This document shows, piece after piece, positions 2 to 37,011 of a stretch of DNA of 64,000 bases. The notes under the pieces were generated by a model. That model did no database searches. It was not told the DNA's origin and saw nothing but the letters and a program-made list of their open reading frames with translations. Within the stretch, counting starts at the first letter, position 1, and every line of letters starts with the position of its first letter. This DNA is from Trigonopsis variabilis. Taxonomy: Eukaryota; Ascomycota; Trigonopsidomycetes; Trigonopsidales; Trigonopsidaceae. The DNA is taken from NCBI GenBank assembly GCA_003707065.3, contig PPXM03000002.1:372001-436000 (forward strand), read 5' to 3'. The translations under genes were made by a program, and so were the position numbers.

Positions 2-3000
2 TTGGAATCACCCTACGGCCGTCATTATGAGGAGGACGACGGATCCACGGAAGACACTACGTCAGATGCTTTGGTCTTTGAAGAAATTGCTGAACCTCAT
101 GGAGCGGTGGTCTTAGATATCGATGAAGGTCGGTATATTACTCGACCTGGTGGTCGCCGTCCCGCTATCTCATCCCGGCGGCTTTCGCGTACTCTCTTGG
201 AGCCTTTGTTCTCAAGTAACGATGCCTATGGCTTGTTGAATGGGTTTTTCGATTCCCAGGGTCCTCCAGGGAGTCACCAACGGGTCCGTGCGCTATTAGA
301 GCGTATTCAGCGGCGCCCGCGTGCCCTTCGCCCTCAAATAGTCGTATCTATGTATGACACTGCCTCTAATGGTGTCTTCCTTCGAGATTTCGCAAAATAC
401 TGGACCCTGTTGACTGCTCATAACCGCATTTCTCTCATTGCTGAATACGCATTCTTCAAAATGTATCCCAGACTGCGGGAAGTTGATACCAAATTGAAGG
501 CGATTGAGGCTGCCATTGTTCCCCAACGAGCTCCTGAATCGCCAATTGAGGAAGTTCCTGATGCAGAGAGGTCTTACATTCAAATTGGCTCCGATACTGT
601 GGATGTCACAGGACTTGATATCGATCTTACTTTCTTCCAAGCTATTCCTGACCATATGCGTGCTGAGGTGTTGGCTCAATATATTCAGCAAACAAGAGCC
701 GAGGCACGAGCTACTGGTGAGCGAATCCGAGCAGCTTCTGATGAATATTTGGATTCTCTTCCGCAGGCTGTTCGCCGCGGCGTGGTCCGACAGGAGCGTG
801 GCGATGATTTCAACCTTGACACGTTCCTGACATCTTTACCCTCGGATGTTCGGGCCTCAGTGATGGACGAATGGGATGGACAACGGGAACCAAATGTCCG
901 CGAGAGCCGTCCGTTGAGGCAACATTTACTTGCTCAATTGAACTTAGTCAAGGATGAGCCCGAAGAGCAGCCTGCGCCCATTGGACGGAAAAGAGGTGAA
1001 CTGGTTGATGCCGTTGGCCTTGCTGCATTGGTTCGTGCGTTATATTTTGCTCAAACTCCTGGAGCGAATGACTTATTACATGCAGCTCTTGTGGCATTGG
1101 GAGAGCAAAAGAAAACACGACTCGATATCATATGCTTATTGCTATCGCTCCTTGTCGACGGCAGCTCTGATGAGAACCAAGTTCAGCATGGCTTTGCCTA
1201 TTTGAACGGTAAAGCGCGAGCAAAGAAGCGATTGGACGTTTCCTTGGCACCTCCTGGTGTGGTCACTGAACAACTACTGTCAGCTTTGGATGAAGTCTTA
1301 CACCCTGATGGACACACTGCTAGCTTATTCTCTGGTCCCCAAGAATTGCTGATTGGAATTAGAAAGAAGAGACGAAAGGAATCGCGGTTTTTGATTGACG
1401 ATATTATTTCGCTTTTAGAACGGCCCGTTATTCGCAGCAGTTCCTCATGCATGGGTCTCTTGTCTGAAGTTCTTGAAGAGGCTGCTCGTCAATCTGTCCG
1501 TGGTGAAGTGAAGATTGCGGACAACAACTTGAAGCTGCTGACTGGTATCTTGACTGCAAATGAATGCAATACCCGCACCTTTAGTAAAACTTTGGCTACC
1601 TTGCAGGCCTTGGGACGGCTTTCAGGAGCCTTGGAAGTGTTTGTGGGACACTTGATTCGAAGTGCTAGTGATCTAGCGGTGCGATTGGCTAAAGATCTCA
1701 ACAAGTTGGAGACTGTTATCAGAAACGCCACCAATGGGTCTGACGTCCAAGGAACAGCTCTGCGATCATTTTCAGCGGGTCGAAGCGATCAGGCGAAGTT
1801 CTTGAGAGTGCTCACTGCGCTCGATTATCTCTACCTGAGCGCTGTGCATAATAATCAAGCAAAGGAGCCGCTATTTGGTGTTGAAAAGAAGGTCGCCTTG
1901 GCGCCGCTATGGGATGCTCTAGGAGGATGTTTAGATGCTATTCTGGACCGACCAGACATGAGCCACGTTGCGTCAGTTTTGCTTCCCGCCATTGAGTCAT
2001 TGATGGTTGTTAGCAAACAGGAGGTCGAGAAGGCTGGGCGAATAGAAGAGGATGGCATTGAGAAACAAAACGCACTGGTACGATTGTTCTTTGCCTTTAC
2101 TGAAAAGTATAAGCGGGTATTGAACCAGTTGGTCCGAACCATTCCTCGTTTGATGAGTGGCTCGTTTGCTGTTTTGGTGAAGAACCCACGAGTTCTTGAA
2201 TTTGACAATAAGAGAAACTATTTTAGCAAGAAGGTTCACGAGGGCAGTGAAGATCGCTCGCTTGGCACGTTGTCGTTGAATCTCCGCCGCGATCGAGTAT
2301 TCCGAGACTCATTTAACGTCATCTACTACAAGAATGCCGACGAGTTCAAGCATGCGACTTTGAACATCAAATTCCAAGGCGAACAAGGAGTCGACGCTGG
2401 TGGTTTGACGCGAGAGTGGTTCCACGTTCTGGCGAGGCAGATGTTCAATCCAGATTATGGGCTCTTTGTGCCTGTTGCCGGAGACCGCACCACTTTCCAT
2501 CCTAATCGAACATCTTGGGCTAATAACGATACACACTTGATGTACTTTGAGTTTGTTGGTCGGATCATTGGCAAGGCTTTGTATGAGGGCCGTGTGCTGG
2601 ACTGTCATTTCAGTCGTCCTGTCTACAAAGAGATGCTCGGGCGGTCGGTGTCGCTCAAGGATATGGAGTCGCTGGATCTCGAGTATTACAAGTCAATGGT
2701 GTGGATTCTGGAAAACGACATTACCGGGGTTATCGACGAGACTTTTACGATTGAAACGGAGGACTTTGGTGTTCACAAAGTGATTGAGCTTGTTCCGAAC
2801 GGCAAGAATGTCCCCGTGACTGAGGAGAATAAGCAAGACTTTGTCAAGAAGATTGTCGAGTTTCGACTAGTGACTAGTGTCAAGGAGCAGATGGAACATT
2901 TCATGAAAGGTAAGCTAATATTTTGAGCACAGAAGAGACTAATTCTTCAAGGATTCCATAGTATAATTCCAAAGGAATTGATTTCAATATTTAACGAACA

Positions 3001-27470: not shown

Positions 27471-28928
27471 TTACTTGAAGACCTTGCCGTCAACGTGGGG
27501 CTTAACTTTGCCATCAATGGGCAAAGGTTTATCCCAAGCCCAAGCGTCATCGACAAAAGCCTTGTCGGCAGCAGACGAAGGGTCAAGCTTGGTGAAGGTG
27601 TAAGACTCGTAGTCGGGGGCGACAGAGAAGGCGGGAAGATAGTCATCTCCTCGGACAAGGAAGGCACCGGTGATGCCGCAGTCGTTGTTTTCGCCATAGA
27701 CGGACATGGAGCCAAACAAGAAGTTGGTAGATTCTTGGAGACGACCAAAGAAGCCGCCGATTTGGTTGTTGGCCATGAAGGTAAGAGTCAACTCAGGGTT
27801 GTATTTGAAATCAACCTTCCAGAGCGAGTAGTCGGCGGGGTCGTAGTGCTCCCAGAACCAAGGAAGGGCGGTGGAGCGGGTGTCGTTGTTTGAGTAGAAA
27901 CGTTTCCATTCATCGATGGGGAAAGACTTGGCAGGGCCAAGAGCAGCGAGAGGGTGCTTGGGCTTGGGGGCAGGAGCCTCGGCGGCAGCCTTGGGCTTTT
28001 CGGCCTTGGGCTTGGCCTTCTCAGCCTTGGGCTTAGCAGGAGGAGTGTACTTGATGGGCTCATCAACGGGGACGATCTCACCGACAACCTCGACAAAGAC
28101 TTTTTGGTTTATGATGGTGTTGAAGTGGCGGGTGGTGTGGGGGTGAGCAATTCGCCATTGGGAACCGAAAATGTTGTTGAATCCAAGAACAAGGATGGAG
28201 GCAGCAAAGTAATCAGCAAGGGTGATTCGCTCGCCGACAAAGAAAGTCTTGTCGGAAAGGTATTTCTCAACATAGGTCATGTGAGTCTCGAGATCCTTCT
28301 CGGCCTCCTCAACAGCCTTCTTGTTGTAGGGAACCTTGCCCTGGAGGGGGGAGATAACAGTGACGATACGGCGAAGAACATCCGAGTTGAAGTATGAAAG
28401 CCATTGGATGGTCTTAGCAAAGTCCTCCTTGGAAGAACCAACCAAAGGAGTGGTCTCTGAAGCAATGCGGGCGACTGCATATTAGCCTTATGGTTACATC
28501 CACAAAGACGTTGGATCTACTCAGATCATAGTCCAATCAACAAAGCAAAGCTTCAGATAGGGATTGAGAAAGAATTTTTTAAGGAATGGTTTCATCACCG
28601 CAGATCCAAACCTCGACAAACTTACAGTAAAGAGAGATGGCAATGGTCTCAGACAATTTGAAGCCGTCTTTACCAACAAAGTAAGGCATCTAGAAAATTA
28701 GCACCGCGCTTCCTACAGTATCTTATACTCACAGTGTTCAAAGGATAAATCTCTGCCAATTTGGGGCGAAGAGCTCCTTCGTTGGCCCGGACATCGACGA
28801 AGTCAAGTTCAAGCTTGTTGAGCTTGGCGATAATAAGGGGAGTATAAGTGCGAGTATTGGACTAGACGTTAATTGACTGGCACCGTTTGTCTTCATACCT
28901 TGCTACCGTATAAAGTTCCGAAGCTCAT
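27471..28928 (-). CDS. TEF4: Translation elongation factor 1B gamma subunit
   Basis: Four exons (28928-28899, 28861-28733, 28689-28626, 28474-27471) encode 408 residues, against 412 in yeast Tef4. The N-terminal 200 residues form a glutathione transferase-like fold (GTLYGSKSNTRTYTP start). A Lys/Ala/Pro-rich linker (residues about 215-250) leads to the conserved EF1G C-terminal domain (PLAALGPAKSFPIDEWKRFYSN onward). It anchors the guanine exchange factor for eEF1A. The codons are strongly biased (AAG, GTC, CTC), fitting high expression. The third intron is 151 nt and carries a C/D snoRNA. Confidence 0.95.
28513..28607 (-). ncRNA. SNR38: Intronic box C/D snoRNA, positional match to snR38
   Basis: Lies inside the third intron of the elongation factor 1B gamma gene. 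Box C is GTGATGA (28592-28598), box D is CTGA (28521-28524), and a possible box D' is CTGA (28553-28556). The ends form a perfect 6-bp terminal stem, GGATCT (28602-28607) with AGATCC (28513-28518). In S. cerevisiae the TEF4 intron hosts snR38, which guides 2'-O-methylation of 25S rRNA, so the host relation appears kept. I could not match either antisense element to rRNA with confidence, so the target is not assigned. Confidence 0.85.
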
Positions 28929-36539: not shown

Positions 36540-37011
36540 CGGTGAGCAAGTTAGAAATTTCCTGGCCTTGTAACGGTAACGGTCTCGTTGCCAGGCAACT
36601 CTCTGACGCCCTCCACTGGCATCTTGCCAATTACAAACTATGCGGCCGTGGCGATAATATAGTTGGCTGATGAAGTATTAACAGTGTGGTTTTAGTTATA
36701 GACGTCAATTTGGTCACTCTTAGCTCGTACCAGTGACTCGAGGTGAATGTTGAGCAGTATTTGGAGGTCTTGGAGTGACATTGAAGTTAAGGGGCCTTTG
36801 TATATGGGCAAAGGACGTGCATCAGTACGCGAGCATCTCAGAAGTGACGCTTTGGGTTGGCAATTTTTAGGTGTCGTGGTCTTGCACCTTTTATCGTGCT
36901 CAGTATTTGGCAATGATGATAACCTCAAGATATCTATGCGTCTACGAACGTGTGGGGATGTTTATTCCAAAATACTTGATCTAATCTGAGCCAATCGTTC
37001 CATGTCAACCA
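36540..37011. other. Intergenic, promoter of ELP3
   Basis: 472 bp between the VPS45 stop and the ELP3 start, both minus strand. A 29-codon minus-strand frame starting MSLQDLQILLNIHLESL (about 36692-36778) is too short to call. Nothing else recognised. Confidence 0.5.

Follow-up and report, generated by a model that had tools for sequence, protein, structure and literature searches.

The third intron of the EF1B-gamma gene of Trigonopsis variabilis contains a predicted box C/D snoRNA, which most likely derives from an snR38 residing in the ancestral EF1B-gamma intron. Its guide for 25S G2815 appears to have been lost, and the RNA would now be an orphan or retargeted. We consider this the best explanation of the locus and a fairly probable one. 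Positions refer to the window, the whole 64,000-nucleotide stretch of DNA that was analyzed.

The host gene is located at 27471..28928 on the minus strand, based on Pfam matches and an exon model. It starts with an ATG at 28928, has its 3' limit at about 27471, and encodes a protein of 408 aa after splicing, composed of a GST-like N-terminal part and an EF1G domain. The last exon, which alone was used as the query, matches PF00647 (EF1G domain; 3.8e-43) and PF00043 (GST_C; 3.4e-13), and no second EF1G match exists in the 11.35-Mb assembly. Across the third-intron junction, the spliced protein can be aligned to solved structures of EF1-gamma and GST-like proteins (phmmer). The exon model contains introns of 37, 43, and 151 nt. 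A previous sequence-only reading had described the 151-nt intron as an outlier among introns of 33-46 nt; its length was confirmed, and the range was checked only against the 37- and 43-nt introns of the same gene. The third intron (28475..28625, minus strand) is inserted in phase 1 after codon 74 (..AISLY|F..), has the 5' splice site GTAAGT and the 3' splice site CAG, and reads GTAAGT...GGCTAATATGCAG. Apart from the 95-nt snoRNA, it consists of 56 nt, 18 upstream and 38 downstream of the snoRNA. A branch-point-like GGCTAAT (28481..28487, minus strand) lies 25 nt 3' of the snoRNA.

The candidate snoRNA occupies 28513..28607 on the minus strand, the bounds given by the sequence-only reading, with an RF00213 match at 28514-28606. 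All elements described here are on the minus strand. The terminal stem is formed by the 5' arm TTGGATCTGC (28600..28609) and the 3' arm GTAGATCCAA (28511..28520), which pair over 10 bp (9 Watson-Crick, one G-U) with no mismatch. The 5' arm is followed by a G, an exact box C, GTGATGA (RUGAUGA; 28592..28598), 35 nt, an exact box D', CTGA (28553..28556), a spacer, a C'-like box, TGTTGAT (28536..28542), a second spacer, an exact box D, CTGA (28521..28524), and the 3' arm. The C'-like box is imperfect; in the snoR38 alignment it falls on the C' segment of the model. The D' guide element, CTCAATCCCTAT, lies at 28557..28568, and a possible D guide, GGACTATGAT, lies at 28525..28534. Box C, box D, and a possible D' with a perfect 6-bp stem had been proposed before; all were found, and the stem extends to 10 bp. 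With boxes C and D, a terminal stem, and internal C'/D' boxes (C' imperfect) all present, the annotation of 28513-28607 as a box C/D snoRNA gene inside the EF1B-gamma intron is supported by the DNA sequence.

A combination of this kind is rare by chance. On both strands of the window, a box C, a box D 50-110 nt further on, and a stem of 6 bp or longer are combined at one place, which is 28513-28607; a stem of 5 bp adds one further site, on the plus strand at 36913-36989, without D'. In 7.68 Mb of first-order Markov random DNA, both strands counted, 16 sites had a stem of at least 6 bp (4 with D') and 2 had a stem of at least 8 bp (0 with D'). Among 200,000 random 151-nt introns, stems of at least 6 and at least 8 bp were found in 167 and 31, respectively. 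The fold energy of the candidate is ordinary (z -1.63).

A 301-base stretch was compared with the covariance models of 4227 Rfam families, with E values up to 10. Four families matched. The best is RF00213 (snoR38/snR38), with 30.3 bits and an E value of 0.0037 for this stretch, aligned over model positions 1-91 of 91 with 5 inserted nt in the candidate. It leads the next C/D family, snoZ157 (15 bits), by 15 bits. A run of the snR38 covariance model had been proposed by the sequence-only reading, and its outcome is divided: snoR38 is the best family, but the score is below the curated cut-off of 45 bits. The cmscan of the whole window at gathering thresholds reported no family. When the snoR38 model was run over the genome with E values up to 10, three matches were obtained from the 62 candidates (of 1601) that were scored: 30.6, 30.3 (the candidate; E 0.034), and 19.6 bits. 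The 30.6-bit match is an snR74-like snoRNA, whose best families are SNORD79 and SNORD27 (38 bits). Since this RNA reaches 30.6 bits with the snoR38 model, the score alone indicates a C/D snoRNA, not snR38.

The position of the intron adds to the family assignment. The snR38 gene of Saccharomyces cerevisiae is located within the TEF4 intron (PMC2705663, PMC3454408). Among the TEF4 intron-deletion primers in Table 3 of PMC2705663, the exon-1 primer, ATAAAATTGGATAGCCAAAGC, complements the ALAIQFY codons, and the exon-2 primer starts GTGGCTAATCAAG; these two primers place the TEF4 intron after ..AIQFY, to within one nucleotide. The T. variabilis intron follows ..AISLY (..TIAISLY) plus one base of the following codon, and phmmer aligns the protein to the yeast paralogue as KLTEAMAINYYL over KLSETIAISLYF. 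The two introns thus interrupt the gene at matching codon boundaries, give or take 1 nt, and the TEF4 phase is fixed by the primers only to that precision. The idea that EF1B-gamma hosts snR38 in S. cerevisiae also is borne out by PMC2705663 and PMC3454408, and the matching intron position extends it. The guide carries a further resemblance. The last 8 nt before D' are identical to those of snR38 (AUCCCUGU) at 7 of 8 positions, in register, with the difference at position 2, while the upstream part differs: positions 9-13 are all changed (5/5), and identity over 13 positions is 7. The chance of a 7/8 core identity is about 4e-4, for a window picked post hoc, and that of the identity over 13 positions is 0.024. 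The same position, orientation, and RNA class, together with the 7/8 guide core before D', point to descent from one intronic snR38, and the candidate is probably an snR38 descendant. An old host-guide link, which the sequence-only reading had raised as a possibility, gains from the host, the intron place, and the best Rfam family, but not from the guide, which no longer reads as a working snR38 guide.

The rRNA sequences scanned with the guide elements were unverified copies of yeast 18S and 25S, a 718-nt part of the T. variabilis 18S, its own 5S, and stray eukaryotic contigs; the shuffle comparisons of guide scores covered these yeast 18S/25S copies, the own 718-nt 18S, and the own 5S. The own 18S part, which is the 5' part of the gene, is identical to the yeast 18S copy at 665 of 716 aligned positions. 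Pattern searches of the assembly for the own 25S (conserved stretch) and 5.8S gave no match. To our knowledge, the 25S target stretch of snR38 is near-universal, with the usual sequence CACAGGGATAACTGG. The stray contigs L032, L033, and L034 carry eukaryotic rRNA genes on contigs filed as bacterial MAGs (Proteobacteria, Mucilaginibacter, and Dehalococcoidia) and look like contamination. They were retrieved by the target stretch itself and hence are no test of its conservation.

The canonical snR38 guide reads ...CAGUUAUCCCUGU. In the yeast 25S copy, the snR38 consensus guide forms 13 bp with ACAGGGATAACTG, and G2815 is at D'+5. Yeast snR38 is listed with 11 guide bases and target 2815 in PMC8527467. 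An snR38 guide would be expected to form about 11 or more bp around G2815, whereas the D' guide of the candidate forms 6 contiguous bp at this site in the yeast 25S copy, with a duplex energy of -8.9 kcal/mol versus -22.4 kcal/mol for the family consensus. A working snR38 guide is not supported for the candidate snoRNA.

Neither element matches rRNA elsewhere above the level of shuffled guides. The best rRNA score was equalled or beaten by 92/150 shuffles for the D' guide and by 121/150 for the D guide, and 23/40 and 11/40 shuffles, respectively, were as good or better in duplex energy. The sequence-only reading had seen no obvious rRNA match for the antisense elements by eye, and the scans and shuffles agree with it. 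It had also named a lack of rRNA complementarity of at least 10 bases as one half of a refuting test, and for the rRNA scanned this lack was observed: perfect Watson-Crick matches reach at most 8 bases from box C to box D and at most 9 within the 95 nt as a whole, although with G-U pairs the D element reaches 10. In register-free shuffles of the C-to-D stretch, 150/200 reach 9 or more, versus 8 for the candidate.

Several individual targets were considered and rejected. For the D' guide, 18S offers 11-position pairings with a single mismatch near yeast 1038, 1224, and 1538, and the best overall match is the LSU rRNA of the stray non-fungal contig L032 (10 positions, one G-U); the best score of this guide on yeast and own rRNA is the one equalled by 92/150 shuffles. 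The D guide pairs with 18S near yeast 1008 over 10 positions with no mismatch and G-U allowed, equalled by the 121/150 shuffles; its matches in the stray contigs L032 and L034 are longer and rich in G-U. It also forms 10 bp with the own 5S rRNA, 6 nt from box D and overlapping C', and 11/40 shuffles are as strong. With the human snRNAs U1, U2, U4, U5, and U6 (unverified copies) as targets, shuffles equalled the D' guide in 418/500 and the D guide in 372/500 cases.

Other C/D snoRNAs of the same genome were used as controls. Nine guide elements from six of them (the snR73-, snR74-, snR76-, snR77-, and snR78-like RNAs and U24) were scanned, and seven were compared with shuffles. Shuffles equalling the rRNA score numbered 0 for snR74-like, 1 for snR77-like, 0 for snR73, 3 for snR78-like, and 13 for snR76-like guides, each of 150. 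By duplex energy, the counts were 0/40 each for snR74-like, snR77-like, snR73, and snR78-like, 12/40 for snR76-like, and 0/40 and 1/40 for the two U24 guides. All seven guides compared with shuffles have rRNA matches over 10-13 positions with no mismatch, G-U allowed. In the scan without shuffles, the snR76-like D-side element matches over 10 positions with one G-U, and the snR73-like D-side element has no clean match. Each of the six other snoRNAs thus has at least one guide with a mismatch-free rRNA match of 10-13 positions, whereas the two elements of the candidate do not stand out. The scan is not sharp, as the snR76-like D' guide, with a target of known type, is equalled by 13/150 and 12/40 shuffles.

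Five of these control RNAs form a cluster on L009 (G000:C6:295902-298984), at 940-1727 on the plus strand, in the order snR78-, snR77-, snR76-, snR74-, and snR73-like, an order shared with the snR72-78 cluster of yeast. In Rfam, snR76 and snR73 are above the cut-off and the snR77Y-, snR78-, and SNORD27/SNORD79-like RNAs are below it; no snR75- or snR72-named family was matched at E up to 5. The SNORD27-like RNA matches 18S A28, which is the site of yeast snR74 according to the CD21 row in Table 1 of PMC2780460.

A second snR38 was searched for across the genome. When up to 3 mismatches are allowed, the guide plus D' has 22 matches (14 forward, 8 reverse), versus 25 for a reversed control. Twenty of the 22 were examined, and none (0/20) has, on the correct sides and no more than 60 nt away, both a box C, even a relaxed one, and a CTGA. 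A relaxed box C lies near the guide-like word in L016, L017, and L018; of the three, L017 alone has an exact TGATGA, at a distance of 13 nt; L012, the nearest guide-like match, has no box C. In four of the guide-like loci, Rfam comparison detected no snR38 with an E value of 1 or less. The guide core TTATCCCTG placed 10-40 nt after a box C was found at 0 places in the genome and at 1 in the reversed control. The 30.6-bit match on L009 was ruled out as a second snR38, being the snR74-like cluster member. No other snR38 was detected in the assembly, in which the rDNA at least is incomplete and of which the family search scored the best candidates only, so that one may have been missed. As no other snR38 was found, the methyl group at the G2815 equivalent is predicted to be absent or otherwise made.

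By analogy with fungal intronic snoRNAs, the RNA would be released from the debranched EF1B-gamma intron and trimmed to its terminal stem, with the C/D core proteins (fibrillarin, Nop56, Nop58, and Snu13) holding the boxes and stem. In Fusarium graminearum, intronic snoRNAs including snR38 are reported to decrease when the debranching enzyme is deleted (PMC9606315). With only a 6-bp contiguous core left to the target in the peptidyl-transferase centre, the D' element would no longer direct methylation at the 25S G2815 equivalent. The present role of the RNA could be a new non-rRNA target, a guide-free role, or none. Perhaps the C/D RNP is kept apart from 25S methylation, with the boxes and stem under selection and the guide free or moved to a non-rRNA target, a proposal to which we give about one chance in three in the scale of our beliefs, and hold only tentatively.

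Other explanations bear on the origin and the fate of this RNA. An unrelated C/D snoRNA may have replaced a lost ancestral snR38 in the same intron, its resemblance being due to chance and generic C/D features. Such turnover fits the 22 deep cases of unrelated snoRNAs in orthologous introns for which PMC3511168 reports no common ancestry in any, the equally high snoR38 score of the snR74-like RNA, and the guide identity of only 7 over 13 positions (P 0.024). Against this stand the shared class, intron, and orientation, the 15-bit lead of snoR38, and the 8-nt core that precedes D' in exact register (7/8 identical, about 4e-4 before allowing for window choice), and we regard replacement as unlikely. 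That the intron merely contains box-like words and yields no RNA would agree with the ordinary fold energy and with an anatomy known here from DNA, but this is the least credible of the explanations, given 31 of 200,000 random introns with a stem of at least 8 bp, no random site combining such a stem with D', and the covariance-model match, with E values of 0.0037 (301-base stretch) and 0.034 (genome).

If the RNA does descend from snR38, it may be decaying, with a dispensable methylation, a drifted guide, and the remainder disappearing. The lost guide and the ordinary size of the intron without the snoRNA are what decay would leave, but there is no departure from consensus in boxes C, D', and D and no unpaired position in the 10-bp stem, though the guide is altered at every one of positions 9-13. 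Such intact elements next to a rewritten guide favour retention over decay, which we judge quite improbable. It is more doubtful still that the RNA is a working snR38 whose guide co-evolved with an altered own 25S rRNA. The guide core is retained at 7/8, the own 25S rRNA is unreadable in the assembly, and snoRNA-rRNA co-evolution is described for Neurospora crassa in PMC2780460; nevertheless, several changes would be needed in this near-universal target stretch. Descent from snR38 with loss of the G2815 guide is the reading that we prefer.

The candidate resembles snR38 of S. cerevisiae and RF00213 in host family, intron position within 1 nt, full-length model alignment, boxes, and, less clearly, the guide core AUCCCU-x-U before D', but differs in its sub-threshold score, guide positions 9-13, and short pairing at G2815. 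Homologues of snR38 for the G2815 site are listed for N. crassa, Schizosaccharomyces pombe, S. cerevisiae, Arabidopsis thaliana, and human in Table 1 of PMC2780460, and a guide for the equivalent site is listed for Dictyostelium, yeast, Arabidopsis, and humans in PMC8817022. The N. crassa homologue in the former table, CD23 (26S Gm2773), is similar in being an intronic C/D snoRNA whose working guide lies at D', but differs in that this guide is listed as 11 bp without mismatch. The candidate is also similar to the N. crassa orphans CD53 and CD55 of the same table, C/D RNAs with no recognised target; these have no listed homologues there, whereas for the candidate the target of the probable ancestor is known. 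Among the titles listed by our literature search, none concerned loss of the snR38 guide; the survey The fungal snoRNAome (PMC5824354) lay outside its scope.

If the C/D RNP is kept for another reason, T. variabilis would lack a 2'-O-methyl group beside the peptidyl-transferase centre and would offer a natural case of possible loss of methylation at an rRNA site that many eukaryotes share. It would also mean that the host-intron place and the target of a snoRNA, which are frequently inherited together, can come apart, as place and scaffold look kept and the guide lost.

The U24 RNA of T. variabilis may show the opposite. In yeast, U24 lies within the ASC1 intron. In T. variabilis, U24 (SNORD24, 49.6 bits) was found on L038 (G000:C6, match 600111-600188, plus strand; 1363-1578, plus strand), 30 nt after an snR87-like RNA (47.8 bits). 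Both of its guides match rRNA, but no RACK1 reading frame was seen around it by eye in the three forward frames. A minor observation concerns the rRNA genes of this species. On L037 (G000:C5:340000-349990), a 5S rRNA gene (2048-2167, minus strand) is located about 2.1 kb upstream of the 18S gene (4288 onward, plus strand) on the opposite strand, so that T. variabilis has a 5S gene in linkage with its rDNA.
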